Positions 4,601 through 19,901 of a stretch of 22,729 nt of DNA are shown here, one piece after another. The notes beneath the pieces are model-generated. The model was not told the DNA's origin, did not search any database, and saw only the letters and a list, made by a program, of their open reading frames with translations. The first letter of the stretch is position 1; each line of letters opens with the position of its first letter. Made by a program: the position numbers and the translations under genes. Source of the stretch: a virus. The stretch lies in the IMG/VR virus record IMGVR_UViG_3300010413_000184, positions 1-22,729 of that record; one strand, given 5' to 3'.

Positions 4601-5344
4601 CTATACAAGATTTAATGATGCCAAAGCCCATGTCCTTATAGGCTTGTATCTCAAAACCAGTTCCCGGAATTCGCTATAACGTGATGCCGGGATATTGGCA
4701 ATTGCAGTAATATCAAGAGGATCGCCGGATATGTAAAAAAAGAATTTCCACCTGTAAGGGTCAATAGGGCAGAAATCCTCGTTTTCAAGTTCGCCGTCAA
4801 TATGGTTCTGTATTATGCGGGGCCTGTTAATATCAAGCACCAAATTATCACCGAGCACAAAATCACCAAGTATTGCACCGGCAGTAATGAATTGATTGCA
4901 TGGGTCTATCGAAGCAAGAAAGCCCGATACAATGCCCTCAAGGTTGAAATCTCCCAGCACTACGTCGCCTAGTATCGATTGAAAATCGGCCGAATAAACG
5001 CCCGGAGTGACATAAACATCAAAGCCGCTTTCCCTCAACTTGTCCTGCACATATTCCTGAGTCTGTCCACCCCTGTTATTCCATTGTGTTTCCAGCCTGG
5101 CGCGGCGCTCAGCGATAGTAAGCGCCGGGTTGAAAGGCAGCCTGAATCTTGATTCCCAATCCGGTATAAAGGATTCTTCCATCAGGGACGGGAAAATTGA
5201 ATCTCTTACAGTATTTATGTAAATGTAATACTTTTGCAGTTCATCGCCAATTCCGCTGATGATAGCTGACATTACCTTGAATGGCCTTTGAAGCCATGCG
5301 CGGCCGGTTGTTAAATGACTGCTTATAATTTTCTGGAAATCCAT
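4601..5344 (-). CDS. baseplate wedge protein, Mu gp48 / P2 gpI-like
   Basis: A 247-residue protein in the position after the gpJ-like gene, as in P2 and Mu. The N-terminus (HLTTGRAWLQRP, 10-21) and the C-terminus (YRWKFFFYIS, 197-206, then ASRYSEFRELVLRYKPIRTW, 220-239) match the DUF2313/YmfQ pattern, where a Trp/Phe-rich strand precedes a helix ending in KPxxT. In Mu and P2 this protein joins the baseplate wedge to the tail fibres. Residues 124-132 (ILGDVVLGD) and 158-166 (ILGDFVLGD) are a near-exact internal duplication. The start overlaps the upstream stop by one base (TAATG), with no clear Shine-Dalgarno site, so translation is probably coupled. Confidence 0.75.
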   Translation of the reverse strand: MDFQKIISSHLTTGRAWLQRPFKVMSAIISGIGDELQKYYIYINTVRDSIFPSLMEESFIPDWESRFRLPFNPALTIAERRARLETQWNNRGGQTQEYVQDKLRESGFDVYVTPGVYSADFQSILGDVVLGDFNLEGIVSGFLASIDPCNQFITAGAILGDFVLGDNLVLDINRPRIIQNHIDGELENEDFCPIDPYRWKFFFYISGDPLDITAIANIPASRYSEFRELVLRYKPIRTWALASLNLV

Positions 5345-6537
5345 TATGAATAAATTATATTTCCCGCTTTTGATTTTTCTCCGTTGTCAAGCTGGTAAAC
5401 GTCAATAGGAATAGTATTCAATTCAAGCAGCAGGTCGTTGATAGTTCCGCCTAATTGACTTATCGCGGAAACGGCCACTGCCAGAAGTTCAGCGCGTGAA
5501 ACAATATCATTCTTTTCGTCCAGAAAATCAGCGCCATCAAGGAATGGCTTTTTATTCTTTAGCGTCGTTACAAGGGCATCATTAATCCTTGATTGCGCGG
5601 CCGGTATATCAGGTGCATTAAGGCCGACAATCTCTATATCAAAAAGAAGCAGCATAATAGGAAGCATAATCACTACGTCAGACAACGGCTTGCGCTGGAG
5701 GCCGGTTTCAGGGTCAATGAGTATCGCATCATAAGCGGCATCGAGCACGTCCTGTGTTGGGATTCCGTCAGGGTCTACCTCCGGCGTCGCCTCTATATAA
5801 ACGTTGATTTTGCCGGGCTCTATTATATCGCTGTAAGGATACGATGCCGCCACGCCTTCCGCATCAAGGGGCCATCTCTTATAATCAATCCTCGCGCCCC
5901 CCTGTGGTGCAAGTCTCAGGACGCTTACAACACGGGGCCGGTATGATTTTTCTATATCCTCGCCATCCGTCGCGGTAGTCTCAACCGCGCTCACAATGGC
6001 AGGATTATCAATGCCCGAGAATGGATTAACCGTTATAACTTCCGCGCCTATTGGTAATGCATATTCAGTATTTTCTCTATCCTCTGGAACGCTGGCCTTT
6101 ATAATGCCTTGGGCCGCGCCTCCGGCAATTGTTATTTCAGCCTCAAGCAGATATATATTGCCGGTGCTGCTTCTGTAGGCAGTACCGGCAAGGAGTGTGC
6201 TGCCGTCAGTTCCGGCTATATCAATAGTGTATCTAGGGGCCTGTCCCGGCTTGGGTTCGCCTACTTTCAATAGCCTGCCCCATTGTTGTAAACGTCCGCC
6301 ATCCACAACGTTTTCATCATCCGCCGTTTGCGGGTCTGTCTGGTTTAGTATCCATAATCCAAATGTATAAACAAGCCTTATAACTGGCGCGATTGCCGAG
6401 GCGAGGACAAAAAGGGCAGACTTGAATGATCTCTGAATCTTTATTGAGCCCCGAGGCAAACCCTGTATTTCAGAAAATCTGCTTTCCCAAGCATTAATGA
6501 TAGAATCTCTGATTTCTATGGTAGTCGGTATATGCAT
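5344..6537 (-). CDS. baseplate J-like protein (Mu gp47 / P2 gpJ)
   Basis: A 397-residue protein of the baseplate J family, length close to Mu gp47. The N-terminal helices (TTIEIRDSIINAWESRF, 5-21) are followed by a segment typical of the family (FVLASAIAPVIRLVYTFGLW), the ENVVDGGRLQQWGRLLKV stretch, a Gly-rich beta domain with PAGT-like turns (LLAGTAYRSSTGNIY) and a C-terminal helical part. It forms the main wedge of the contractile-tail baseplate with the gp46- and gp48-like proteins. Both ends are coupled by TAATG one-base overlaps with its neighbours. Confidence 0.88.
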   Translation of the reverse strand: MHIPTTIEIRDSIINAWESRFSEIQGLPRGSIKIQRSFKSALFVLASAIAPVIRLVYTFGLWILNQTDPQTADDENVVDGGRLQQWGRLLKVGEPKPGQAPRYTIDIAGTDGSTLLAGTAYRSSTGNIYLLEAEITIAGGAAQGIIKASVPEDRENTEYALPIGAEVITVNPFSGIDNPAIVSAVETTATDGEDIEKSYRPRVVSVLRLAPQGGARIDYKRWPLDAEGVAASYPYSDIIEPGKINVYIEATPEVDPDGIPTQDVLDAAYDAILIDPETGLQRKPLSDVVIMLPIMLLLFDIEIVGLNAPDIPAAQSRINDALVTTLKNKKPFLDGADFLDEKNDIVSRAELLAVAVSAISQLGGTINDLLLELNTIPIDVYQLDNGEKSKAGNIIYS

Positions 6538-7022
6538 TATTCAGATAGTGTCCTTTGCTTTTCATATTCCCAGCTAAAATTGAAGCTGGTATCATTCGTG
6601 GGCTGTTCAATCGTGTCCCTTACTTCGATGCGATCTACTCCCGTTATAAAGGCTTCTGAAATAATGCTAACAGCTATTCCCTTTCGCCTTATCCAGTCTA
6701 TATCGTCCTCGCTAAAATCACTTATACGCAAAAGGTTACCGCTGGTAATCTCCAATTCGTTTAGCGCGCGCTCAAGGCCGGAGTTCATCTGTCTTTCAGG
6801 CTCATTCTTTACAAGCTCGTTTCCAAACCAGTCGAGGCGCAATTCTCCGGGCTTTTCGTTTCCAGTAGTGGATGCCTCTACGTTTCCGCCGAAATGAGAT
6901 AAATAAACTGCACTGTAAAGTCCGCCGTCAAGCTCCAAATCAACATAGGAGTTTTCCTGGTCGAAAGTATCAATCAGCCTGAAATCGCCGCCATCGTGTG
7001 TTTCTGTTAAAAGTATTTCCAT
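6537..7022 (-). CDS. baseplate wedge protein, Mu gp46-like
   Basis: A 161-residue protein between the spike and the J-like protein, the place of gp46 in Mu and gpW in P2. Residues 62-68 (RLDWFGN) correspond to the GWWGD-type motif of the family, and residues 80-110 (SGLERALNELEI) fit the following conserved helix. The family protein links hub and wedges of the baseplate, like T4 gp25. The ATG at 7022 has no ribosome site; a TTG at 7028 in the same frame is an alternative. TGATATAAT lies just before the ATG, so a leaderless transcript or reinitiation after the spike stop, 11 bases upstream, are both possible. Confidence 0.75.
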   Translation of the reverse strand: MEILLTETHDGGDFRLIDTFDQENSYVDLELDGGLYSAVYLSHFGGNVEASTTGNEKPGELRLDWFGNELVKNEPERQMNSGLERALNELEITSGNLLRISDFSEDDIDWIRRKGIAVSIISEAFITGVDRIEVRDTIEQPTNDTSFNFSWEYEKQRTLSE

Positions 7023-7033
7023 ATTCAATTATA

Positions 7034-7540
7034 TCATGGTATAGGTGGCGATGTTGGAACAACGCCCACAAGATGCCTGTGCGTTTTAAGCCCTATACCG
7101 TCCGCTATGACATCGCCTCCTGTTACTGTTATGTCCCCATTAGTCATATTGATATTGCCCTCAATATCCAAATCGCCTGTCATGTCGATATTGCCGTTTA
7201 TTTCCAGATCCCCGTTTATAGTGCCCTGGCCCTCTATAACATAACTTCCATCATTTTTAAAATGCATCGAAGCTGAAACCGCATTGCCCGTCGCGTCCGT
7301 GCTGTAAATCCTTATCTCTCCCGGCTGCGTTGCAAGGAATCTGTTTATGAATGCCATGATAAGCCCGCGCCCAGCGGTTGTCGCCCTGACAAAAGCGCCC
7401 TTTATTCCAGGATATGGGTTAGCATCTATCCCGAAAGGCGAAGCAATCTCGTTTTCGCTTGCCTTCCCCTTCAATGGCTCATGTATGGCTATTCTGAGCC
7501 CTCTTTTAGAGGCGGTTGATTTTATCTTTGTTAGTCTCAT
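7034..7540 (-). CDS. baseplate central spike, Mu gp45 / P2 gpV-like
   Basis: A 168-residue protein. Residues about 45-75 (FVRATTAGRGLIMAFINRF) probably make the short N-terminal barrel; LATQPGEIRIYSTDATGN (69-86) is the family's PGE-x-(R)-x-YS signature; residues 104-148 form regular Gly/Asn/Asp-turned strands (GDLEINGNIDM, GDLDIEGNINM, NGDITVTGGDV) of a triple-stranded beta-helix; THRH (153-156) gives the HxH motif that in P2 gpV binds an iron ion at the spike tip. As a trimer it would pierce the outer membrane. It starts by a 4-base ATGA overlap with the tape measure stop. Confidence 0.82.
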   Translation of the reverse strand: MRLTKIKSTASKRGLRIAIHEPLKGKASENEIASPFGIDANPYPGIKGAFVRATTAGRGLIMAFINRFLATQPGEIRIYSTDATGNAVSASMHFKNDGSYVIEGQGTINGDLEINGNIDMTGDLDIEGNINMTNGDITVTGGDVIADGIGLKTHRHLVGVVPTSPPIP

Positions 7541-9381
7541 GTTCCGACAAAGCCTTCGTCCATGCCCGCCGTCCTCGGAGTCATTTCTATTATTCCGGGC
7601 GCGCCGTCCTCTGCCATTCTGCCGCGTCCCGTTTTGTCCTCTATGATAAGTCTGTTTCTGGTTTCCTTGCTTGTTTCCTTTATCTCTTTTGTCATTGCCG
7701 CCTGTGGTGCAACTATCCCCTCGCCCGTTCCCGTTACCTTGATATCAGCGTTGCCGCCGCCGAATCCCTCGGATATAGCCCCCTTTATAGCTCCCTGTAT
7801 CGCTTCTGACGCCTTGCCCAATGCACCAAGGCCCGGTATTTTCCCTAAAAGCTCCATGAATTTCAATGTCGGCCATAACATGAAACCTATTATTGCCGCG
7901 CCTATTGCTATAACCTGTTTTCTGAATACTATTAACGCGGCAATTGCGGCTGTAATACCCAGCGCTATAAGCACTATCGGATTAAGCGCAAGTATAAAGT
8001 TCATCGCTGCAAGGGCGATATTTACAACCGCGATTGCAGCCGCCAGTGCAAGTACAGGCGTCGCTATCTTTGCGATTGATATAATTGCTTTGATAACTCC
8101 CGGATGCGTTTCAATGAAACTATTAATAGATCTTATTATTTTAGTTATTGCTTGGACAGAGCTTAAAATTGATGGTTGAAGTTGCTTATATAATGTAATG
8201 GAAAGCCCTTCTGTGGCGCTTTTCATAGTTTTAAAAGCGCCTAAAGTTGTAGATCTCATTAATGATGCCATATCAAAAGCAGAGCCAGATGCATTCTCAA
8301 GCTGTTTCTGATATTCTCTCATGCTGTCCGCGCCCTCTTTCAAGAGGATGTTTACACCTGCAATAGGTATCTTGCCGAATATCTGATTGAGGGCGGCGGC
8401 CTTTTCGGCGGATCCAAGGCGGCGCGTTGATTTATCAAGGTCGTCCAGTATATCTATGATGTCCCGCATATTGCCGGATGAATCCTGTGTCCTCACGCCC
8501 AGCTTTTTAAGCTGCTTTGCGGCCTGTGGAGTTGCGGCTGCAAGTCTCAGGAAAACGTTTTTAAGCGTTGTTCCGGCATCGCCACCCTTGATTCCCGCAT
8601 TCGCCAGAACACCGGCAAGCGCTGAAAACTGTTCTATTGACGCACCGGCGCTTGTCGCCACGGGGCCGCCCTGCTTGATTGTCTCAAACAGTTGAATCAT
8701 ATCCGTATTGGATGTTGTTACAGTCTTTGCCAGAACATCATTGACGCGCGCGAGGTTCATCGAAAGCTGGGAAGCGTCCTTTGTAGCAAGTCCCATAGCG
8801 CCCAGCGTATCCGTTGCGATATCGGTTGCGGTTGCCAGGTCTGTTTGTGCCGCCGTTGCCAGATCGACAACCTTTGGAAGCGCCGCGACCGATTGCTCGG
8901 CGTTCATTCCTGCCATAGCAAGGAAATTAAGGCCGGAAGCTGCTTCCGCCGCCGTGAATTCCGTCGTTGCGCCCACGTCTCGCGCGGCGGCCTCTAATGC
9001 TTCAAATTCCTTTGTCCCCGGACGTATAGCGCCCGGAAACTTTGCGGCAGCGTTAACGACTGTCTGTTCAAACTCAAGGCCCGTTTTTATAGCGTCCTGG
9101 GCCACAAGTGTAAAGCCTGCAATACCGGCAATAGCTATACCAGCACCAAATGCCTTTTTGAATCCTTTTCCGAATGTCTCAGTTTTTCGTTCCAGCTTTG
9201 AAATGATAGCGGAAATCTTGACGCGGGCATTTTTGAAAGACTGCACGGCCGAGGCGCTCATTTGTTTGAAGCGCCCGGCCATGCCTGATGCCGCAATCTT
9301 ACCGCTTCGGGCAATCTGTTTTAAAACTCTGGTCGTTTTGTCTATAGCAGTATATGCACTGCTTACTGCAAAATCAGACAT
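7537..9381 (-). CDS. tail tape measure protein (TP901 core family)
   Basis: A 614-residue protein with the TP901-type tape-measure core at about 90-330 (QDAIKTGLEFEQTVVNAAAK, ARDVGATTEFTAAEAASGL, FLAMAGMNAEQSVAALP, ALAGVLANAGIKGGDAGTTL). Residues about 430-510 are strongly hydrophobic, as in tape measures that enter the host membrane for DNA passage. At the usual 0.15 nm per residue the tail would be roughly 90 nm. It follows the frameshifted chaperone gene with an 8-base overlap, the universal order for tailed phages. GAGGGCAGA stands before the ATG. The C-terminal tail after 520 is Gly-rich and probably contacts the baseplate. Confidence 0.92.
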   Translation of the reverse strand: MSDFAVSSAYTAIDKTTRVLKQIARSGKIAASGMAGRFKQMSASAVQSFKNARVKISAIISKLERKTETFGKGFKKAFGAGIAIAGIAGFTLVAQDAIKTGLEFEQTVVNAAAKFPGAIRPGTKEFEALEAAARDVGATTEFTAAEAASGLNFLAMAGMNAEQSVAALPKVVDLATAAQTDLATATDIATDTLGAMGLATKDASQLSMNLARVNDVLAKTVTTSNTDMIQLFETIKQGGPVATSAGASIEQFSALAGVLANAGIKGGDAGTTLKNVFLRLAAATPQAAKQLKKLGVRTQDSSGNMRDIIDILDDLDKSTRRLGSAEKAAALNQIFGKIPIAGVNILLKEGADSMREYQKQLENASGSAFDMASLMRSTTLGAFKTMKSATEGLSITLYKQLQPSILSSVQAITKIIRSINSFIETHPGVIKAIISIAKIATPVLALAAAIAVVNIALAAMNFILALNPIVLIALGITAAIAALIVFRKQVIAIGAAIIGFMLWPTLKFMELLGKIPGLGALGKASEAIQGAIKGAISEGFGGGNADIKVTGTGEGIVAPQAAMTKEIKETSKETRNRLIIEDKTGRGRMAEDGAPGIIEMTPRTAGMDEGFVGT

Positions 9382-10016
9382 TCTGCCCTCGCGGGTTTAT
9401 CTTATTGTCTATCTGTTTAGCTGCATCGTACCAGTAATCAAGTCCGTATAATGGTACATCGCTTATTTCAAGCTCCCCTATCGCCTGTGGCGAAAAGTGA
9501 AACGTTGCGGCAACTGATACTATCTTGTCATGTGCCGCGCTTATATCATGCGAGAAAAAACAGCGCGTATGATCTGAGGCTTGCATGGTCGCCAGTATCA
9601 AGCCCCTTATCCCCGAGTTCGTTTTCCGCATTCTTGAGAATTTGTCTCGGGATATTGGAAAGCGCTGAAACCATCGCAAGCGCTCTTTCGTCGACCGCGC
9701 CTATCTCGATATCCTTAAAGGAATTGAAAGCCTGGTTAACGCCTATGAAAAAACGCATTGAAAGGCTCTCTATCTTGCCGGATTCGCGCGGGCTCAGGGG
9801 TACTGCCAGTTTGTATGTCGCGCGCTTTTTCTCGAAATCGAAAGTAAGCGCGCCGCTTTCAACAAGCCTTATAAGATCTTTGATGTTCTGCTCAAAGGTC
9901 TGTTCCCTCTTGGATTCGGGAATACGCTTAAGGTCAAGGAATTTCTTAACCTCAAGCTCTGCCGCTTCCGTATCCACCTTTGCTATATCCTGAGTCTTGC
10001 CGCCTGCCTTGTCCAT
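9374..10016 (-). CDS. tail assembly chaperone, long frameshifted form
   Basis: Just before the tape measure, two overlapping frames are arranged as in the gpG/gpGT (lambda) and E/E' (P2) chaperone pairs. The long form reads the first frame to the Phe-Phe codons at 9560-9555, then continues in the second frame (SHDISAAHDK onward) to the stop at 9374. The second frame is +1 relative to the first, so a +1 or -2 slip is needed, not -1; Mu is known to use -2. The product would have about 213 residues (+1) or 214 (-2). The extension is rich in Tyr, Trp and Asp (PLYGLDYWYDAAKQIDNK), as is common in these extensions, which are thought to bind the tape measure while tube subunits assemble around it. 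The second frame's own ATG at 9679 has no good ribosome site. Confidence 0.7.
9546..10016 (-). CDS. tail assembly chaperone, short form
   Basis: A 156-residue protein encoded between the tail tube and the tape measure. Residues 24-40 (LKRIPESKREQTFEQNI, approx.) and 73-90 (PRESGKIESLSMRFFIGV) form amphipathic helices, and the rest is mostly helical, as expected for a chaperone of the gpG/gpE class. It is not a virion protein in known systems; it keeps the tape measure soluble and recruits tube subunits. The stop TGA at 9548-9546 comes two codons after the TTTTTTC run. ACAGGAGGGCACAGGC stands before the ATG. Assigned mostly by position and by the overlapping second frame. Confidence 0.7.
   Translation of the reverse strand: MDKAGGKTQDIAKVDTEAAELEVKKFLDLKRIPESKREQTFEQNIKDLIRLVESGALTFDFEKKRATYKLAVPLSPRESGKIESLSMRFFIGVNQAFNSFKDIEIGAVDERALAMVSALSNIPRQILKNAENELGDKGLDTGDHASLRSYALFFLA
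9555..9563 (-). promoter_or_regulatory. putative ribosomal frameshift site
   Basis: The minus strand reads CTG TTT TTT CTC GCA TGA in the first frame. The Phe tRNA on the second TTT can move forward one base to TTC, which it reads well, or back two bases to TTT; both enter the second frame. No X-XXY-YYZ site for a -1 slip fits the required frame. A possible downstream stem (GCGGCA at 9538-9533 with TGCCGC at 9512-9507) starts 16 bases later, with a 20-base loop, and is weak evidence. Confidence 0.6.
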
Positions 10017-10031
10017 GCCTGTGCCCTCCTG

Positions 10032-10427
10032 TTATACGTCCTTTTTTAGTTCCGTACCCTTGAACATAACGGTTACGGTTGAATTGCCGTCGTTCTTTGC
10101 CATATCACCCGTGGGTTTTGCCTTGTGTGTGTATATGCTGCCGCTGATATGCTCGTAACTGACCGTTGAAAGCGCTGTTGCCCTGGACGCCTCAAGCAGC
10201 CATTCATGGTCGCCGTTTGAATCGTCAACGTTCAGGACGACCTCGCGCTCTCCGGGCCTCACGCGCATAATATCCCTCATGCTTCCATCGCCGTTTGCCT
10301 CAACCTCCTCCGTGAAGCGGCCGCCAATTATGCGGCTGTTATCGCCGCCAGTGGCAACGGAAAAGTTTTTTGTCTGTCCGTCAGGCCTTTTTATGAATAC
10401 GCTTATTAAATCACCGCCCTGTGCCAT
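10032..10427 (-). CDS. tail tube protein
   Basis: A 131-residue protein directly after the sheath gene, the tube position in contractile-tailed phages (Mu gpM, P2 gpFII). It is predicted to be beta-rich (RPDGQTKNFSVATGG, GEREVVLNVDDSNGDHEWLL, STVTVMFKGTEL), fitting the single-domain tube fold, which stacks in hexamers to form the inner channel. Length is close to Mu gpM. AAAGGAGG precedes the ATG. The assignment rests on order, size and predicted fold rather than on a strong sequence motif. Confidence 0.75.
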   Translation of the reverse strand: MAQGGDLISVFIKRPDGQTKNFSVATGGDNSRIIGGRFTEEVEANGDGSMRDIMRVRPGEREVVLNVDDSNGDHEWLLEASRATALSTVSYEHISGSIYTHKAKPTGDMAKNDGNSTVTVMFKGTELKKDV

Positions 10428-10458
10428 GTTGATATGCCTCCTTTATTTTTCTTTTTTT

Positions 10459-11997
10459 CTATCCGCCGAAGTTAAAGCCCCAGCGTACCGTCGAGTCGGC
10501 CTGGCGCACGTTGCCGGAGTATATGAGAGAAAAGGACGTTTCCACGCGCTCAGGGTTCTGAGCGCCTATGCCGGTTAAAACCGTATCCCTGGATTCGTCC
10601 GCCCTCGTGGTTATGCCTTCCGTCTGCAAGTCCGTTATGAATTCACGGACTATGCTTGCCCATTTCTTGGGGTCTATTGCCTCGGGATTGCTTGTCTGCG
10701 TAACATCCTCGACCAGTATCTTGTCCATGAGGGCGCTTTCTTCAAGCACCCTGTACTGGTAGATAACGTTCATGGAACGTCCGAGCACGTTCACTACCCT
10801 GAAATAAGGGCTTGCTGCCGGATTTTCACCGTCAGGATGATAATGCATATTCACGTCCTCTATGTAGTAGACGCCGTTGTTGAGGGTTGCCGATGAAACG
10901 CCCTTGCTTTCGATGAAATCCCGTGACAGGTAATCGTTGAAATCTCCGGCGTCCGCCTGGTTTGCGGGTGCTGGCACATCAAGCAGGCCCTTGCCGCTGT
11001 AAGACTTCGGCGGATTCTGCGTAACCGTCAGGGCAATTTGCAGGACGAATGCAGCCGCAATCTCGAAAGTGAAGCCCGGAGATCCCGGTGCGGGCACTTT
11101 GCTGTTTGTCATGTCTGCCTTGCGCGTATCCGGGACAAGCACTATATCGTCCTTGTCGTTTTCGTTTGTCCCGTAAAATGAAACGAAAGGCTTTGTTACC
11201 AGCGCGTTCCATCTTCCAGTGTCGAGTTCTGCCGATCCGTTGAAATCCTCAAGCTGGTCGAGTACGGTTTCCGCAACGTCAACCGCGTTGACTACCACGT
11301 TGTACCATGTTTCCCCGAAGTTGGCAAGGGCCGCTGAAACATCATATGTGCCTACTCCGCCCGCGAAAACGGGGTTTGTGTAGATTATTCCCGCGAAGTC
11401 GTCCGCCTCGATGGAAATGTCTATTTCGTTTCCGCTTTCGCCCTTCCATCCTGCCGTAAGGTTAATGTCAATGTCATTGCCCACGGCGGCCTGAACAACG
11501 CTGTCGACGGTATTGAATTTTATTGCCGCATCGAGAGTGTCCTTGATGCGGTTTGCAAGCGATGTAACGTCGTCCGTTTTCAGCACCACAAAAGGAATGC
11601 GGCGGCCGTTGGCCTTTATGTAATGCGTTATGTTTTTGTCCGGATTCACGGCGGCAATGTTTATCGCGAGTACACCTGCCGCCGCTACTCCGTCGCCCGC
11701 CTTGACGGGAAATAGCGTTGTCCTTATGGTTGAAAGGCCGCCTCCAGTTTCGGGCCTGAGCATACGCGCGGCCCTGTATGCGGGCGATTTGTAGCCCACG
11801 GCCTCGCCGATTTCGCGGGCAGTCTGGAAGTCAATGCCTATGTTTTCCGCAAGTCCTGCCTCGGCTGCCGCTGAAACAGGCGCAAGCAATGCGACCTGAA
11901 CGGGCATACGCTGCGGAATGTTCCGCAAGTCTATGAATTCCAGCTTTGTTCCGATAACCCTTGCGATAGCATCCTCTGGTATTGCGTTGCTTATCAT
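10459..11997 (-). CDS. tail sheath protein
   Basis: A 512-residue contractile sheath protein, similar in length to Mu gpL. The N-terminal part (ALLAPVSAAAEAGL, DFQTAREIGEAVGYKSPAYR) matches the region in which sheaths define the subunit interface. The middle has beta-rich insertions (about 200-240), and the C-terminal domain is typical: FNDYLSRDFIESKGVSSATL, then GVYYIEDVNMHY, then FRVVNVLGRSMNVIY and a final strand ending VRWGFNFGG. The C-terminal domain weaves neighbouring subunits together during contraction. I prefer the ATG at 11997, six bases after AGGAGG; the GTG one codon earlier (12000) is too close to it. The upstream gene ends at 12000. Confidence 0.9.
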   Translation of the reverse strand: MISNAIPEDAIARVIGTKLEFIDLRNIPQRMPVQVALLAPVSAAAEAGLAENIGIDFQTAREIGEAVGYKSPAYRAARMLRPETGGGLSTIRTTLFPVKAGDGVAAAGVLAINIAAVNPDKNITHYIKANGRRIPFVVLKTDDVTSLANRIKDTLDAAIKFNTVDSVVQAAVGNDIDINLTAGWKGESGNEIDISIEADDFAGIIYTNPVFAGGVGTYDVSAALANFGETWYNVVVNAVDVAETVLDQLEDFNGSAELDTGRWNALVTKPFVSFYGTNENDKDDIVLVPDTRKADMTNSKVPAPGSPGFTFEIAAAFVLQIALTVTQNPPKSYSGKGLLDVPAPANQADAGDFNDYLSRDFIESKGVSSATLNNGVYYIEDVNMHYHPDGENPAASPYFRVVNVLGRSMNVIYQYRVLEESALMDKILVEDVTQTSNPEAIDPKKWASIVREFITDLQTEGITTRADESRDTVLTGIGAQNPERVETSFSLIYSGNVRQADSTVRWGFNFGG

Positions 11998-11999
11998 CA

Positions 12000-12833
12000 C
12001 TAACCTCCTGTGGTTTCCATTGATATAACTTTGCCATTATCGGCAGTTCTTAGTTTAACATTTATTCCAGTAATTATCTTTTGCAAAATTTCTCCGCTTA
12101 TTGCCGGGCCAATTTCGTTAAACATCACTGTGGCGTTAAGAATTCCGACCGTCCCGTGAACGGCATCGTTCTCCTGATAATCAGGCTGAAATACATCGAC
12201 GCTGTTAACCCACCTTTGCCAAATAACGTTATCCTGTGTTGAATAACCAAGCCTCACATACTGGCCTGACATTATGATTGCCCTGATAAGCCCAATTATA
12301 CGCGCGGCCACTCTTGCCGCCTTTTCATCGCCGTATTTTATTTCATCATTCTTTTGTTTGTGTTTTGCGGTTATGTGTGCCTCAATTGTATAAGATGCAT
12401 TAGCTACCTGACGGTTGATTGCATCGCCCTTGTCGGCAGGATAATCAGAACGGTTATAGTAAATGTTTATTCCCGGGAGTTCGCTTTTGTCAAACTTGGT
12501 TCCCTTTTCTATAAAGAAGTTTGAAAGGACATCATAAACGCCGTTTTCCAGATCCCAAAGGGCCTGCTTCCCTACAAGCGTTTCAGGCTGTGTCGCCGCC
12601 AGATTTTCTGCAAGCGTTTTATGGTTATTGAGTTCACCTATGATAATTAACGCTATCTGATCCCTGACTATTTCCGCAATCATCGGCATTATGTAGTTGT
12701 CGATTACCGGATTGAAGGGCTCGGGAGGTTCGAATACATCAGAACATGTACGCATTTCATCAATGACAAAAGTTTTAAAAATACTTATAAGCCCTGGATT
12801 AGGTAACACTATGCCAACATCAATAATAGCCAT
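12000..12833 (-). CDS. putative tail terminator/completion protein
   Basis: A 277-residue protein just before the sheath, the usual place of tail terminator or completion proteins (P2 gpR/gpS). The N-terminal 100 residues are helical (VIDNYIMPMIAEIVRDQIAL). The rest fits an alpha/beta terminator-like fold: LPGINIYYNRSDYP, YTIEAHITAKHKQ, a helix AARVAARIIGLIRAIIMSG, and strands QRWVNSVDVFQPDYQ and VGILNATVMFNE. The pattern of helix between two long strands is that of terminators which close the tail tube. No specific family is recognised, and the N-terminal extension is longer than normal. The start overlaps the previous stop by one base (TAATG). Confidence 0.55.
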   Translation of the reverse strand: MAIIDVGIVLPNPGLISIFKTFVIDEMRTCSDVFEPPEPFNPVIDNYIMPMIAEIVRDQIALIIIGELNNHKTLAENLAATQPETLVGKQALWDLENGVYDVLSNFFIEKGTKFDKSELPGINIYYNRSDYPADKGDAINRQVANASYTIEAHITAKHKQKNDEIKYGDEKAARVAARIIGLIRAIIMSGQYVRLGYSTQDNVIWQRWVNSVDVFQPDYQENDAVHGTVGILNATVMFNEIGPAISGEILQKIITGINVKLRTADNGKVISMETTGG

Positions 12834-13789
12834 TATTTAGGTATAGCTACTCTTACTGTTCCGTTATTGCCCAATATCCAATGCTCGGAGTCAATGCCTG
12901 CCGGATTCGGGAAACCATCATTGTCAATCTTGAATATTGTTTCATCCGTGAATGGAAAAACCACGCCATTTGAATATTGCCCGAGAAGTATCATGCCTGT
13001 TACACGGCCCCTGATCTCCCATGAAATTGTACTTTGACCGAAATAAGCTACCATTTTAGATGCTATTACTTTTCCACTCCATGGATGATTACTGCCAGGT
13101 ACAGTTGTTCCGTGTATTCCATAGTTGCCAGTATCGAGGCCCCTGAGATTGTAACGGCCCATCTGTCCAAAGTCAGTCAGAAAACCGGCATAAATGGTTG
13201 CCTGAATTCCGGTATTACCAAGGCGTGTCCGGCAAAATGCAAGCATAAATGCACTAGATACTGCATTTATCCCAGCGGCGGATGTCCATATATAAGGCGG
13301 ATATCCGGCAGCTACCGTGTCCTCTGGATTATCACGCATGGTTTCACAGATACAGGTAAAACCGTTTTGATTGTTTCCGATTTCCCCGTTGACTTCCGAA
13401 AGCAGGAACATATAACTTGCCTGGGCAAATATATGCATCTTACCTCCAGCCACCAAATCAACAAGCTGGGCATATGCTGTCGTATCACTGCCATATGCTA
13501 GGTTTGTTCCTGCATGTGTTAACTCGTTCCAGCTTTCATAGACCTTGAGCATAAGATAACCGGCAGCGTCATAGTCAAGCACTATGTACTTGTAAGATAT
13601 GCCGTCCTTATTGAATGCCCTGTATGCCCTGGCGTTTGCACCTGCCGCCACGTCAAATAATATCCAGCCCATAGTCAAAATTGCAGCCTCTATGGTATCA
13701 ATAAAGTCTGCAAGGTTTGCTGCTGCCGGATAAGTTATTGTTCTGCTATTTGTGCTTGGTTGTGTTATCCATGCCGGAAAGGATGCCAT
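12833..13789 (-). CDS. hypothetical virion-associated protein (318 aa)
   Basis: A 318-residue protein between the head-tail connection genes and the tail completion gene. I do not recognise the family. It has no membrane segment; it is rich in Gly, Ala, Tyr, Trp and aromatic-Gly turns (NARAYRAFNKDGISYKY, GKMHIFAQASYMFLL, ENGFT-like turns, GVVFPFTDETIFKIDNDGF), suggesting a compact beta fold exposed on the particle. About ten Trp and Tyr residues near small residues are compatible with carbohydrate contact, but this is a guess. GAGGAGG stands eight bases before the ATG, directly adjacent to the previous stop, so it is well translated. It could be a neck, decoration or tail-completion protein. 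Confidence 0.6.
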   Translation of the reverse strand: MASFPAWITQPSTNSRTITYPAAANLADFIDTIEAAILTMGWILFDVAAGANARAYRAFNKDGISYKYIVLDYDAAGYLMLKVYESWNELTHAGTNLAYGSDTTAYAQLVDLVAGGKMHIFAQASYMFLLSEVNGEIGNNQNGFTCICETMRDNPEDTVAAGYPPYIWTSAAGINAVSSAFMLAFCRTRLGNTGIQATIYAGFLTDFGQMGRYNLRGLDTGNYGIHGTTVPGSNHPWSGKVIASKMVAYFGQSTISWEIRGRVTGMILLGQYSNGVVFPFTDETIFKIDNDGFPNPAGIDSEHWILGNNGTVRVAIPK

Positions 13790-14844: not shown

Positions 14845-15939
14845 CTAGAATATGGCTTCAAGGCAACCGTGGCCGCCGTTGTTTGTGGGCACAAGCAGCG
14901 GCGCGCTGTCTATGCCGATTATCGTTGACTTGCCCTCCGTCCTGGCAGTGGGCATAAAGTCCATTGCCTGACGGGTCGCTATGGTTGTCACACGGCCCGG
15001 CAGGAGTGACATTATTTCGGCCTCTGCCTGCACTACCACGTCAACGCCAGCGTGATAGCGGCGGCGGTCGGCGGCGGAGGCGAACATGACAACATTGTTG
15101 TCATTGATGTAAGGCACAAGGTTGCCGGTCACAGGATCGTTGTACTTGCCCGTGTAAAGCCAGAGCGTGTATTCGTATTCGTCAATGATGAAACGGCCGA
15201 GGCGCTTCATGCCGTTTCCTGCTATCGGCGAGGGCTCTATCATGCCCTTTTCCACACGGCGGTTGTCAAGCTCGGCCCTGACGTCGTCGTCGCCCATGAA
15301 ATAACGGAAAGCGGCTTTTCCGAATATGATGTTGTCAGGGTCGACAAGGCCCTTTTCCCTTATCTTGTTTGCAAGGGCCGCGAGGTCTGCGAATTTGTCT
15401 GACGCGCCCGCCCATGATGCCACGGCCTGCGGGAAAAGGTCTGCGGACATTTCAAAGTCAAGATCCTGAACGGAATCGCCCAGCACGGCGGCGAATACCG
15501 AAAACTGAATCTTGCCTTTCTGTAATATCTCGGCGGCCTGCCACTCGATGCCACGGTCAATCTTGTCCTGCATACGGCCGAAATCCGTCGCTATCTTGAG
15601 CATGAGGGCCTGGGTTTTGTTCATGTCGCCCGCATCATACTTTGTCATGCCCGCGCCGCGCGCGGCGAAGTCGGCGATATTGAAGGGCCTTTCCTCTGAG
15701 TAGTAAGGAGGTCTGAATTCCCGCGTTATAAAGCGGTCTGCCGTGTTTATCCTGGGCGGGCCGCCACGCCTGACGGGCAGAGCCATAGCCTCAAGGCTCT
15801 TGGTTATATCGTACTCCACCACTTCGCCCGAGAATATGCCATCGGGCTCAAGCGGAAAAAGGTTCATGAGTCCGTTTGTCGGACGGCGCGTTTTCTGGAC
15901 AAGCCGCCCGAATTTGGTTGCGAATTCTGGATTGAGCAT
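14845..15939 (-). CDS. major capsid protein, lambda gpE family
   Basis: A 364-residue capsid protein, close to the 341 residues of lambda gpE. The E-family pattern is visible: N-terminal YDITKSLEAMALPVRRGGPP, then FITREFRPPYYSEERPFNIADF, a long helix with ATDFGRMQDKIDRGIEWQAA, and the C-terminal LYTGKYNDPVTGNLVPYI then VVMFASAADRRRYHAG. It would build the icosahedral shell with the decoration protein encoded upstream. AAAGGAGG stands before the ATG. An 11-bp RNA hairpin lies between it and the decoration gene. Confidence 0.92.
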   Translation of the reverse strand: MLNPEFATKFGRLVQKTRRPTNGLMNLFPLEPDGIFSGEVVEYDITKSLEAMALPVRRGGPPRINTADRFITREFRPPYYSEERPFNIADFAARGAGMTKYDAGDMNKTQALMLKIATDFGRMQDKIDRGIEWQAAEILQKGKIQFSVFAAVLGDSVQDLDFEMSADLFPQAVASWAGASDKFADLAALANKIREKGLVDPDNIIFGKAAFRYFMGDDDVRAELDNRRVEKGMIEPSPIAGNGMKRLGRFIIDEYEYTLWLYTGKYNDPVTGNLVPYINDNNVVMFASAADRRRYHAGVDVVVQAEAEIMSLLPGRVTTIATRQAMDFMPTARTEGKSTIIGIDSAPLLVPTNNGGHGCLEAIF

Positions 15940-15977
15940 CTTTCTTTATCCTCCTTTAAAAGCGTTTTCAGTTTTTA

Positions 15978-16003
15978 GCTTCGATACTAGGGAGTATCAA
16001 AGC
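15978..16003 (-). other. RNA hairpin between decoration and capsid genes
   Basis: On the minus strand GCTTTGATACT (16003-15993) and AGTATCGAAGC (15988-15978) form an 11-bp stem with one U-G pair and the 4-base loop CCCU. The stem spans the stop codon of the decoration gene. On the plus strand the same pair would be a C-A mismatch, so the fold favours the late transcript. TAAAAAC follows, so there is no U-tract and it is not a normal terminator. It may mark an RNA processing or stability point before the capsid gene. Confidence 0.6.
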
Positions 16004-16385
16004 CCGTAAGCTCGGTACTGTCTATCGCGTGAATGGTAACGTCCCTTAGCTGTTCACGGATGCTCAGGACTGCGCCATTGGGCCTATCGTCTATCGCGAA
16101 TGCGCCGCTGAAAATATCCAGCTTGTCCGTGAATACCTTACCGCCTATGCAGATAGGCAGTGTCCTTTCACCGGCCCCTGCGACCACTATGTCCTCATCT
16201 ATTGCCAGAACGGCGCGGGCATCCTCGGCGGCAGCGCCAGTGTAAAGCAGCCACTTGTCGTCTGCCGGGTCGTACTTCATTACCGCGCCGGGCTTGAGCG
16301 TTTCGGCCCCGGCGCTCTTGACTATCACGCGCCGGTAAATATTGTTACCGGCCCTGAATTGCCTTGTATCCCTCTCGGTTCCCAT
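15987..16385 (-). CDS. head decoration protein, lambda gpD family
   Basis: A 132-residue protein of the decoration family, slightly longer than lambda gpD (110). It shows the expected pattern: IVKSAGAETLKPGAVMKYD (22-40), a mid-section with ARAVLAIDEDIVVAGAG, and the strand-rich end GGKVFTDKLDI and LREQL-like close. Trimers bind the expanded shell at threefold sites and stabilise it against the packaged DNA. It lies between protease and capsid as in lambda (C-Nu3-D-E). AAGGAGG lies nine bases before the ATG. Confidence 0.88.
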   Translation of the reverse strand: MGTERDTRQFRAGNNIYRRVIVKSAGAETLKPGAVMKYDPADDKWLLYTGAAAEDARAVLAIDEDIVVAGAGERTLPICIGGKVFTDKLDIFSGAFAIDDRPNGAVLSIREQLRDVTIHAIDSTELTGFDTP

Positions 16386-16418
16386 CTATATAATCCTCCT
16401 TTTTATTTTTCTTTTCGC

Positions 16419-16763
16419 TTAACCGGCAAGCAGCCCGTCAAGAATGGCCATGTTCTTCTTTTCCAGGTCGCTCATGCCGTCCTGGCCGCCGCCCTGGCCT
16501 TCGGGTGTAAGGCCTTCAAGGTTATCTGCCGTGGCGTCCTCTCCCGCCTTGTGCTTCGCGGCCGCGTTCATATAGGTTGAAATGGCGCTTTCATCAAAGG
16601 GCTTGCCTTCGGTTATGCTCTTGATAACCACGTCCTTTGAATGCTCGATGTTCTTCAAGTGCGCGGATACCCTCGTGCGCTCACCTTCAACTGCCTTTTT
16701 TACTGCCTCCTCGTGCTCGGCCTTGGCTTCGGGGTTGTCCCTGAAAATATCCTGTAGGCTCAT
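16419..16763 (-). CDS. nested scaffold protein, lambda Nu3-like internal start
   Basis: An in-frame ATG (codon 402 of the protease gene, at 16763) stands ten bases after a strong internal Shine-Dalgarno sequence AAGGAGG. It would yield a separate 114-residue protein, MSLQDIFRDNPEAKAEHEEA onward, which is strongly charged, helical and Gly-rich near its end (GQGGGQDG). Lambda uses the same device: Nu3, the scaffold, is translated from an internal start of gene C. The nested product would be present in many copies while the full protease is rare. Position, the internal ribosome site and the composition agree; expression is inferred. Confidence 0.65.
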   Translation of the reverse strand: MSLQDIFRDNPEAKAEHEEAVKKAVEGERTRVSAHLKNIEHSKDVVIKSITEGKPFDESAISTYMNAAAKHKAGEDATADNLEGLTPEGQGGGQDGMSDLEKKNMAILDGLLAG

Positions 16764-17966
16764 TCCTGTAAAACCTCCTTTTTGTGTTCTCTGGTTTTCG
16801 TTGTCCTGCTTTGCTATTTTATTGCGGTATCTGTCTATATGCCTTTGCACTGCCGCCCTGTCACTCTCGGGAATGTCTGGACGCTGGCCGCGCGCTCCTG
16901 ACATTGCGGCGTTTGCGGCAAATACTCCGCGCCTGATTGCGACCAGCTTCCCGTCTACAACGTCAACAAAAGGCAGCTTGTACGCCCCGAAGTTCTCTTT
17001 TGTGGCCGGGTCATACCAGAAAAACGCTTTCTTGTAATCGGCCGAAGGGCTGTCGGTTGAATTGGTAAAACGCCTTACACGCCTTAACGCGGCGGTTGAA
17101 TCCCATGCTTTTTCTATAATCTCGAAATCCTGAAAAGGCGGCGTACCGGCTGAAGGTTCATTGCCGTCTTTTCTTACCAAAGCGCTTGCCCCTATCCTGC
17201 CGCTCTGTATTGTCATATCTTCGCCGCCCTCTATTGCGTCAATCATGCCGCGCCTTAAGGCTATATCGGCGGTCAATGTCATGCCCTTGCCAAATTCGCT
17301 GTTTACGATATCAGGCGTTATATCACGGCCCCTTGCGATAGCACTTGCCATATGGTCATGTACCATATCAAGTTCTTCTCGTACTTTTTCAATTCCTGCT
17401 TGCGTCTTTACGTCAGGGGCCTTGAAAGGGGCCTTTGTTGAAGTGATGTCGATAACGTTGTCAGACGTTATCATTGATATTCTTACGCCCACGCTGCCTA
17501 TTCTGTCTGCCGGATTCTCGGCGGTTATCTTGTCTGCCTGCGATGCAAGCAGATATGCTCCGCTTGCGGCAAGCCCTGATATCCTGGCCTCGACCGGCTT
17601 TGATGCATTCTTTATTACATCGGCGGCAGCAAAAGCTCCGGCAACCGTGCCACCTGGGCTGTCAACGTCAAGCAATATCCTTTCAACATCCGCCCTTGAT
17701 TCCGCCTCCTGAATGCCTTGCACTATTTCCTGATATGTAGTGCCGCCTAGAAGCATCCTGATTAAGCCAAAGCCAGAGGCCGATTTTGTCAGTATTCCCT
17801 GAATCGGTATTACAGCTATGCCGTCGTTGACGTTCAGCTTGTAATCGTTTCGCGGTACTGTGATATTTCCTGCAATGGAAGGATCCTGATAGGCGGCGTT
17901 ATTGCCGTTCAGGATGCTTTGAATCATCTTGAAAGCATATTCATCTATAGCCCAAAGTTCAAACAT
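16419..17966 (-). CDS. capsid protease (S49, lambda gpC-like) fused to scaffold
   Basis: A 515-residue protein in the lambda gpC position. Residues 45-250 are an S49/SppA-type serine protease: VIPIQGILT, LDVDSPGGTVAG (99-110) with the oxyanion Gly-Gly, GLAASGAYLLA (131-141) with nucleophile Ser135, and Lys178 in STKAPF as probable base. Residues about 278-385 are an extra domain (AFFWYDPATKENFGAYKLPF, then VDGKLVAIRRGVFAANAA, DIPESDRAAVQRHI) that I have seen in other phage capsid proteases but cannot name. Residues 402-515 are charged and helical, as a scaffold. It exceeds lambda gpC (439) because of the extra domain. It would process portal and scaffold inside the prohead. AAGGAGG lies 15 bases before the ATG, which is long, and TATAAT lies five bases before it. 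Confidence 0.85.
   Translation of the reverse strand: MFELWAIDEYAFKMIQSILNGNNAAYQDPSIAGNITVPRNDYKLNVNDGIAVIPIQGILTKSASGFGLIRMLLGGTTYQEIVQGIQEAESRADVERILLDVDSPGGTVAGAFAAADVIKNASKPVEARISGLAASGAYLLASQADKITAENPADRIGSVGVRISMITSDNVIDITSTKAPFKAPDVKTQAGIEKVREELDMVHDHMASAIARGRDITPDIVNSEFGKGMTLTADIALRRGMIDAIEGGEDMTIQSGRIGASALVRKDGNEPSAGTPPFQDFEIIEKAWDSTAALRRVRRFTNSTDSPSADYKKAFFWYDPATKENFGAYKLPFVDVVDGKLVAIRRGVFAANAAMSGARGQRPDIPESDRAAVQRHIDRYRNKIAKQDNENQRTQKGGFTGMSLQDIFRDNPEAKAEHEEAVKKAVEGERTRVSAHLKNIEHSKDVVIKSITEGKPFDESAISTYMNAAAKHKAGEDATADNLEGLTPEGQGGGQDGMSDLEKKNMAILDGLLAG
16774..16780 (-). promoter_or_regulatory. internal ribosome binding site for the scaffold
   Basis: AAGGAGG lies within the coding sequence of the protease, encoding part of QKGGF (residues 395-399). 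It is a full match to the 16S anti-Shine-Dalgarno core and is as strong as the sites before the separate genes here. Spacing to the ATG is 10 bases, a little long but workable, and a second weak AGGA lies directly before the ATG. Confidence 0.6.
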
Positions 17967-17977
17967 GAATGATTATA

Positions 17978-19624
17978 TCAACCTCCTTGTGACTTTTCAA
18001 GCTCTTTTATCGGCCTGATTGCATCGGCAAGTGCAACATTCTGCCGCTTTAGGCGGGCAACAACCTTTTCATGCCTTACGCCGAAATACTTTAAAGATAT
18101 GGCATCCCTGTCGGTCAGGCCGTTTTCAAATGCCTTTTCAAACGTATTAACGTGCTTTAGCATATCGACCGAAAGCTCGGCAGTGCTAGACCAGTTGGCA
18201 TTCATCCATGCTTGCACTGTCAGGTGGTCGTTTCTTCTCATGGCATCGAAAAGGCTCGGAGTTACCAGCTTGCCTGTCAGGTCAAGCCCTATAACTATAT
18301 CACGGTAAACAGGCTCATTGAATGTAGGATTAAACTGTGAATGCTCCTTGCGCCTTATAGCGTCGAATTCATTTACCGCCTGGCGCGATGCCGAGAAATT
18401 GTTATTGAACATAAGCATGAGTATTTCAGGCGGAACACCGGCAGCCGCGCCGGAAATATGCACCCCTGCCATTACCGCCTTTGTAACGTCCGGGTTAGGA
18501 TGCCTTGTGTTATGGCTCTCTATTTTCTGCCCTGGCTTTAATCCTTCAATCATGAGCCCCGGCCCTAGCTGCTTGAATTCGACAACTCTTTGTGTCCCGT
18601 CCGCCGTTGTATTTGTAACTGTCTGTTCATTGCTTGCCATGCGGCGTAATGGGCCTTGCTTCAATATATCGGATGCATCCCGGGGCGCGTTTGAATCCGT
18701 GACAACCGAAAGCACTAACTGGTTATCAAGTGCCATCGCAAGCTGTGAATTGTCAAGGGTCGTATCTATCTGCTTTAGCATCTGGATTGAACATCCAAGC
18801 AGAGGCATCCCCCTATATTCGTTCACTCTCATTCTTGAGCCGAAAACAAGGTTTGCCACGCGGCGGCCGCTGTTAGGGCCGAAAGCTGGAATGAAAACGT
18901 AATCCATGCCCTCAATTGAATATACAAGGTTAGGGTTAAAGGCCTTTGCCCTTACCCAATAACCAACCTCGATGCCCCTTGAGTTGATCTCGACGCCGTC
19001 TATAACATCGTTTCCGGTATTCGGATTGATGCCCCTTATCATATTAAGAGGCGTTGAAATATTGTAACCATCAATTAGCTGTATTCTCGGGAGTCGCGTT
19101 ACCGGGTCTATCCTTGTTATTCTGAGGCAATCGCCTGAAAGTTTCGCCGTGCTGTATGCCTGACGCTGCTTTTCATAAAGGTTATCGCGCATTGCCTCGT
19201 CAACGACCTCTGGAATCAGGGCATAAAGACGTATGAATGATTCAACGGATTCCGACCATGTCCTTAAAAATTCATCGTCCTCCGTGAATCCGAGTATTTT
19301 TGCCTCTGGCAATGCATCCGGGTTCAGTCCGTCGTTTATCACCTTTGTTTCAAGGCGGTTGAATATCATATTAGCTATCGGATTTGCGCGCCAGAGGTTA
19401 AGGCTGTGTCTTTGAAGTTCACGGAGATTTACAACCTCATAATTTTTATCCATGCCAAGGCCGCCCGGGAATTTCTCTCCGGTATAAAGATAATGAATAG
19501 CATCGAAATAGTTTGATTCCGCCATAACGTTTTTCATATTGGATGCACGGCGGCTGATAGCTGAATTGCTCTTGCCTAAAACCATCCCCGCGAGGCCTTT
19601 GGCTATGGCAAGGGGATTATTCAT
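17978..19624 (-). CDS. portal protein, lambda gpB family
   Basis: A 548-residue portal protein, near the 533 of lambda gpB. It shows the expected pattern: N-terminal NLWRANPIANMIFNRLETKV (76-95), a mid-section with GDCLRITRIDPVTRLPRIQL, and the conserved NNNFSASRQAVNEF near residue 410 followed by a helix. Twelve copies make the ring through which the terminase packs DNA and to which the tail binds. It follows the gpW-like gene with two bases between stop and start, and there is no Shine-Dalgarno sequence, so translation is probably coupled to that gene. The C-terminus (KSQGG) encodes the AAGGAGG site that stands before the protease. Confidence 0.92.
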   Translation of the reverse strand: MNNPLAIAKGLAGMVLGKSNSAISRRASNMKNVMAESNYFDAIHYLYTGEKFPGGLGMDKNYEVVNLRELQRHSLNLWRANPIANMIFNRLETKVINDGLNPDALPEAKILGFTEDDEFLRTWSESVESFIRLYALIPEVVDEAMRDNLYEKQRQAYSTAKLSGDCLRITRIDPVTRLPRIQLIDGYNISTPLNMIRGINPNTGNDVIDGVEINSRGIEVGYWVRAKAFNPNLVYSIEGMDYVFIPAFGPNSGRRVANLVFGSRMRVNEYRGMPLLGCSIQMLKQIDTTLDNSQLAMALDNQLVLSVVTDSNAPRDASDILKQGPLRRMASNEQTVTNTTADGTQRVVEFKQLGPGLMIEGLKPGQKIESHNTRHPNPDVTKAVMAGVHISGAAAGVPPEILMLMFNNNFSASRQAVNEFDAIRRKEHSQFNPTFNEPVYRDIVIGLDLTGKLVTPSLFDAMRRNDHLTVQAWMNANWSSTAELSVDMLKHVNTFEKAFENGLTDRDAISLKYFGVRHEKVVARLKRQNVALADAIRPIKELEKSQGG

Positions 19625-19626
19625 GT

Positions 19627-19866
19627 TTAGGTAGTTCTGCCATAAAAGCCAATTGGTTTTTCATCTTGTATGTTTTGAAGTTCTAATATCTCTTTTCTGA
19701 GGCGGTCGCGTTCATCATAAAGTGTCTGGAGGTTTGCACGGCCGACGCTCATCTTACCCTGGCCGTCGTCAAGGCTGTAATTCTGTTGTTTCTCGGCCTT
19801 GAGTATTGCGGCTTTAACGCTTGCTAATTCCTCTTGAAGTTCCGTTATGGTATCGCTTATTGCCAT
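19627..19866 (-). CDS. head-tail joining protein, gpW-like
   Basis: A 79-residue protein between terminase and portal, exactly where lambda encodes W. Two helices (ITELQEELASVKAAILKAEK, 7-26, and NLQTLYDERDRLRKEILELQ, 45-64) flank a short beta-hairpin (YSLDDGQGKMSVG, 30-42), the gpW architecture of two helices and a hairpin, and the disordered C-terminus ends in PIGFYGRTT, comparable to the GPAGFYV end of lambda gpW. It binds the portal after packaging so that the tail can attach. There is no Shine-Dalgarno sequence; a consensus-like promoter lies directly before the ATG. Confidence 0.82.
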   Translation of the reverse strand: MAISDTITELQEELASVKAAILKAEKQQNYSLDDGQGKMSVGRANLQTLYDERDRLRKEILELQNIQDEKPIGFYGRTT

Positions 19867-19872
19867 TGAAGG

Positions 19873-19901
19873 ATTATAACAAAATGAATTTTATTTAGCA
19901 A
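19873..19901 (-). promoter_or_regulatory. possible internal late promoter before gpW
   Basis: On the minus strand TTGCTA (19901-19896) and TATAAT (19878-19873) are separated by 17 bases, with TG one base upstream of the -10 (extended -10). The predicted transcript would start at the ATG of the gpW-like gene, giving a leaderless message. The stretch is in the AT-rich gap between terminase and gpW, so chance is possible. Confidence 0.4.

Follow-up and report, generated by a model that had tools for sequence, protein, structure and literature searches.

Two small overlapping ORFs in the tail region of an IMG/VR virus record are very probably joined by a ribosomal frameshift, of either the -2 or the +1 kind, at a TTTTTTC site. 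We think it somewhat more probable than not that the event joining ORF1 to ORF2 at this site is a programmed -2 frameshift. Most ribosomes would terminate at the TGA of ORF1, releasing a 156-aa protein, whilst a minority, with tRNA-Phe on the second TTT, would slip and go on in ORF2. The resulting fusion of about 210 aa may bridge the tape measure and the tail tube, by analogy with lambda GT. The two-base backward step appears the most likely: TTT (9557-9555) would re-pair on TTT (9559-9557) with TTC read next, giving the junction ALFF-F-SHD.

Gene order and frame relation in the window

In the window, meaning the whole stretch of DNA analysed (22.7 kb), the minus strand encodes the head and tail genes. 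The two ORFs sit between the tail tube and tape-measure genes, as is characteristic of a tail chaperone pair (Table 1). Over the window as a whole, head genes of lambda type (GpA terminase, lambda-family portal, S49 protease and capsid E; 14845-21912) occur together with a tail of the contractile kind, which has a sheath and Baseplate_J and Mu Gp48-like proteins (4601-12000). A 318-aa gene with no Pfam match lies between the head-tail genes and the sheath (12833-13789).

Table 1. Putative chaperone locus and neighbouring tail genes, in window coordinates.
Feature	Position	Strand	Basis
ORF1, putative tail assembly chaperone short product, 156 aa	9546..10016	-	position between tube and tape-measure genes; phrog_4648, E 1.1e-7
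ORF2, putative T part of long product	open frame 9374..9700 (open upstream as far as 9700); post-slip coding part about 9374-9557	-	phrog_5697, E 4.9e-6; conserved YWY/W motif; third-position bias
Candidate slip site TTTTTTC (0-frame TTT TTT C), two codons before ORF1 stop	9554..9560	-	sequence; conserved in L002; T run at same place in nearly all relatives
TGA stop of ORF1	9546..9548	-	sequence
ATG in window ORF2 frame, not a conserved start	9584..9586	-	L002 ORF2 frame stopped just after equivalent point
Tail tube gene, upstream neighbour	10032..10427	-	phrog_4699 tail tube, E 3e-16
Tape-measure gene, downstream neighbour	7537..9381	-	PF10145, E 9.8e-47; phrog_1533
Tail sheath gene	10459..12000	-	phrog_165, E 3.5e-49

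The ORF1 start is at 10016, and ORF2 could begin at 9679 at the earliest. The distance of 337 bases (337 mod 3 = 1) places ORF2 in the +1 (= -2) frame relative to ORF1, as a preliminary description of this DNA had calculated. On the minus strand the 3' end of ORF1 reads TAC GCG CTG TTT TTT CTC GCA TGA, confirming the overlap TTT TTT CTC GCA TGA read in that description, with TTTTTTC (9560..9554) two codons before the stop. The -1 frame shuts 2-5 codons past the ORF1 stop in the window and in its one close relative, L002. The claim that the pair is not joinable by -1, leaving +1 or -2 as the sole single-slip options at the T run, is supported. The interval first marked, 9546-9679, covers the overlap, but the functional unit extends over 9374-10016. 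Six copies of TTTTTTC were seen in the window against 9.5 expected, indicating that the heptamer by itself is not unusual. It is the placement and conservation of the site, rather than its mere presence, that appear unlikely to be due to chance. Conserved RNA structure was sought at the junction and none was found.

We call ORF1 and ORF2 a tail chaperone pair on the basis of their position, their family linkage and the overlap itself, which together suggest a chaperone function. The phrog_4648 family holds the FCV-1 and phiSM genes that occupy the place of ORF1, and phrog_4648 and phrog_5697 include the corresponding Flavobacterium and Cellulophaga phage genes. PF10109 (Phage_TAC_7, tail assembly chaperone 'E, or 41 or 14') was matched by more distant members of the set, 12 of 60 members in all, and Shewanella phage SppYZU01 (L010) matched it above the curated cutoff. 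The window ORF1 protein itself had no match in Pfam. Its predicted model, which is confident (pLDDT 91.7), resembles three viral proteins of 131-138 aa, and a fold search of the PDB returned nothing credible.

Gene finders that seek only -1 sites miss the long chaperone, and its second part is unannotated in many public records of these phages. GenBank records lacking the second ORF include FCV-1 and FCL-2 (Flavobacterium), SppYZU01 (Shewanella), CKB-S1 and 1.030.O (Vibrio) and PY6 (Pseudoalteromonas). The -1 extension lies in the gap before the tape measure at L005:6916-7162, L010:6912-7125, L012:6871-7115, L013:6844-7040, L018:6760-7006 and L011:7752-7994. The PHROGs phrog_4648 and phrog_5697, both of unknown function, probably represent the chaperone short part and T part and could be named so. 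Vibrio phages of the family also carry variable opposite-strand cargo between the tail tube and chaperone genes (L011:6490-7170, L016:6228-7192, L017:6229-8412 and L019:6256-7342), including C-5 cytosine methylase and homeodomain-like proteins.

Junctions in the close relative and the wider phage family

The ORF1 of L002 (IMGVR 3300009506_000216) is 79% identical to that of the window over the whole alignment and 83% over the best segment. At the same place L002 reads CTG TTT TTT CTG GCC TGA, and the changes in the flanking codons are silent. Conservation of the TTTTTTC run and of the two-codon distance to the stop, for which the preliminary description had proposed an alignment, was thus borne out in this one close relative. 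The L002 +1 frame opens merely 29 nt before the ORF1 stop and contains no ATG, GTG or TTG, so the shift must happen at or beside the T run. Since the L002 ORF2 frame lacks these start codons, the ATG at 9586 in the window is not the conserved way into ORF2. The T-domain protein in the ORF2 frame is conserved, with the YWY/W motif found across relatives. Post-stop changes in this frame fall at codon positions 1/2/3 in the numbers 14/7/17 between the window and L002 and 12/9/24 between L107 and L109. Scans of IMG/VR with single and two-sequence queries matched L002 only, and a DNA scan for TAYGCNCTNTTTTTTCTNGCNTGA again returned the L002 contig only. The window lineage therefore rests on two sequences. 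ORF1 as a tblastn query gave no match among GenBank phages.

Junctions were gathered from IMG/VR, GTDB genomes and GenBank phages with sheath and capsid proteins as bait, and the sampling follows that similarity. The tail sheath gene of the window served both as bait and as the basis of the trees. A first genome scan yielded no relatives and a second yielded six, all of the -1 type. In the first table 86 of 91 junctions were -1 and five were +1/-2. The enlarged set contained 144 distinct junctions, 137 of them -1 and seven +1/-2 (the window and L002; L109, L113 and L084; L124 and L134). The -1 state is by far the commonest in these relatives. In nearly all of them, four to nine consecutive Ts stand just 5' of the ORF1 stop, and in many there are only four or five. 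GTT TTT is the commonest slip site in the phage family, and all seven +1/-2 junctions have six Ts followed by C. Automatic +1/-2 calls for L190, L192, L207 and L245 were rejected on inspection, as the real ORF2 domain is read in -1 and the longer open frame, in +1, is spurious. That frame runs across the genuine -1 extension (L190:12413-12686, L192:12047-12263, L207:12221-12422 and L245:13190-13427) and misleads a longest-frame rule.

Maximum-likelihood sheath trees placed the seven +1/-2 junctions in three separate lineages, two of them nested among -1 phages; the second tree was a quick one. The window lineage is on a long branch in the sheath tree, making its nearest -1 relative unsure. Because 137 of the 144 junctions show the -1 relation, with a T run next to this same stop, the ancestral slip appears to have been backward. 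The ancestor would have slipped -1 on the T run at the same place, and the sequences indicate that the +1/-2 state is derived, having arisen at least three times.

Switched phages of two lineages have the slip site GTTTTTTCRTAR in common with their -1 sisters, and a one-base deletion just downstream altered the frame. Compared with their -1 sister L117, L124 and L134 have one base deleted a few nucleotides past the slip site, which is GTTTTTTCATAR in L117 and L124 and ATTTTTTCATAA in L134. L109, L113 and L084 likewise have GTTTTTTCGTAR in common with the -1 phage L116. Where T6-C stands in the phase of these five switched phages, 5 of 12 distinct junctions are switched compared with 0 of 130 others, an association that the Fisher test (p about 2e-6) overstates because the sequences are related. 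On the simplest reading, the site may already bring ribosomes into more than a single frame, and a downstream indel of one base would then be tolerated. We also put forward, tentatively and with slightly more doubt than belief, that the T-run site lets a bacterial ribosome slip back one or two bases without a known cofactor, and that a downstream one-base deletion switched -1 to -2 in one step at least three times. A Ser codon, TCG, is kept right after the slip TTT in both -1 and switched phages (L032/L116, L084, L109 and L113). It is kept although it is very rare in these AT-rich genomes (0-1.7 per 1000), and it may set a pause.

Direction of the slip and competing explanations

Three points lead us to favour the -2 step: the ancestral slip apparently went backward, the Ts 5' of the slip codon have been retained, and the Mu site is built in the same way and shifts -2. 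In the window, as in Mu, the second ORF lies in the +1/-2 frame and the run (TTT TTT C) permits full re-pairing two bases back. All three switched lineages retain the T directly 5' of the slip codon, on which -2 depends but +1 does not. If this base were free, the chance of its retention would be 0.255 x 0.457 x 0.259 = 0.03; with at least one T taken as given, it would be 0.08. The A-site codon of the window lineage, neither stop nor rare, also counts for -2, as does the arterivirus GUU_UUU site, at which slips of both sizes occur (PMC10747760). CTC and CTG occur at 9.7 and 16.8 per 1000, compared with 7.2 and 5.3 for the new-frame codons TCG and TGG, in codon counts taken from the phages only.

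The same programmed shift may instead run in the +1 direction, which we regard as a serious but less probable alternative, at about one chance in three. With the A site (CTC) still empty, peptidyl-tRNA-Phe would move from the second TTT to TTC, and the junction would read ALFF-SHD. UUU_C would re-pair to the better UUC, and in influenza PA-X it has been proven to act as a +1 site (PMC3498833). Salmonella tRNA-Phe at UUU-CAA slips +1 when the A-site tRNA is scarce (PMC3617221), and TTT-CGC has been proposed as the site in the tail chaperone of HF1-like haloviruses (PMC7230728). The preliminary description had considered a +1 UUU-C site near the stop uncommon for this gene family. The halovirus proposal provides a parallel in this gene class. 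A +1 slip is one option only, and -2 is slightly better supported here.

Two further findings count against -2. Every switched site permits +1 as well, with UUU followed by a pyrimidine (UUU_C in the window and L002, UUU_U in the other two switched lineages), and none of the 31 distinct T5-A junctions is switched, UUU-A being a site that permits -2 but not +1. A pyrimidine would however be found in all three lineages by chance with a probability of about 0.38, so the argument from pyrimidine context is weak. Codon rarity at the A site differs by lineage: the TCG of the L109 lineage is very rare, which favours +1, whereas the A-site codons of the window lineage are common enough and no stop follows the slip codon, contrary to what a slow A site would entail. 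A +1 slip would also leave the upstream Ts free to vary, yet they are kept, and would require a change from backward to forward slip three times. On the other side, natural programmed -2 cases are few. A -2 step preserves the VFFxRW spacing in L124, but the deletion itself entails that, and in comparison with L036 a +1 step would preserve linker length in the window. Such sequence tests of direction appear weak, and two of them point in opposite ways. The calculated mass of the junction peptide is 1954.92 Da for -2 (SYALFFFSHDISAAHDK) and 1807.85 Da for +1 (SYALFFSHDISAAHDK).

Slippage of RNA polymerase on the T run, leaving some mRNA minus one U or plus two to be read straight through, is very unlikely. 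The junction runs of four to nine Ts in nearly all relatives are consistent with it, but many relatives have only four or five, and six Ts are short for transcriptional slippage. We infer that the ribosome, rather than the polymerase, slips and that a fusion is made. That no fusion exists, ORF2 being translated separately by re-initiation or not at all, is marginally less credible again: the ATG at 9586 would allow it in the window, but the ORF2 frame of L002 has no ATG, GTG or TTG and yet encodes a conserved protein. Least likely of all is a sequencing or assembly error in the T run, where one more T would restore the -1 relation of most relatives, given that L002, a diverged and separate contig, has the same six Ts with different neighbouring codons and that five distinct sequences from two other lineages show the +1/-2 state too. 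The preliminary description had named an unbroken frame in related phages, which would suggest such an error, as an outcome that would overturn it. No relative has an unbroken frame, and the two independent contigs agree on the T run.

Comparison with known frameshift systems

What is new here is a family with a -1 rule and at least three departures from it, in which sister phages use one common site for different frames. The conversion of one chaperone frameshift type into another has hitherto been hard to see. These sister phages provide a natural series for how the direction and size of a slip change while the ratio of long to short protein stays workable.

The -1 chaperones of Flavobacterium, Cellulophaga, Vibrio and Shewanella phages (phrog_4648 / phrog_5697) share with the window their gene order, homologous ORF1 and ORF2 and a T run beside the stop, but have ORF2 in the -1 frame, as do 137 of the 144 distinct junctions in the set. 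The tail chaperone of phage Mu shifts -2 with an efficiency of about 2.2% (PMC3498833), and its -2 shift is also described in PMC5009743. In Mu gp41 (NC_000929) the site is CGG GGG CGA and the second frame is in the same +1/-2 relation, with an overlap of 38 nt. Mu thus resembles the window in its contractile tail, the place of the gene between tube and tape measure, the short overlap, the +1/-2 second part and a homopolymer of at least five bases ending in C (CGG GGG C), which allows both -2 and +1 re-pairing. It differs in having a G run rather than a T run, lying about eight codons before the stop instead of two, and in that its direction is known whilst that of the window is inferred. No direct match between the window protein and Mu gp41 was obtained at the sequence level.

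HF1-like haloviruses likewise have two small overlapping genes between tube and tape measure, a fusion needing +1 and TTT-C near the first stop (PMC7230728). Unlike the window phage they are archaeal, no T6 run is described for them, and their direction too is deduced from frame only. The arterivirus site GUU_UUU yields both -1 and -2 (PMC10747760; PMC5009743). Like the window family it has a U run serving two backward steps, and GTT TTT is also frequent in the phage family; it belongs, however, to a eukaryotic virus and is stimulated by one viral and one host protein. If our tentative proposal of slips by one or two bases is true, the T-run site of this family would be a bacterial parallel of the arterivirus site. 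Lambda G/GT is similar by role, with a minority fusion linking tape measure and tail tube (PMC5009743), a likeness drawn without sequence comparison; its slip is -1 and its tail non-contractile. Different phages are documented to use -1, -2 or +1 in their tail chaperone genes (PMC5009743), so either direction would have a precedent here.
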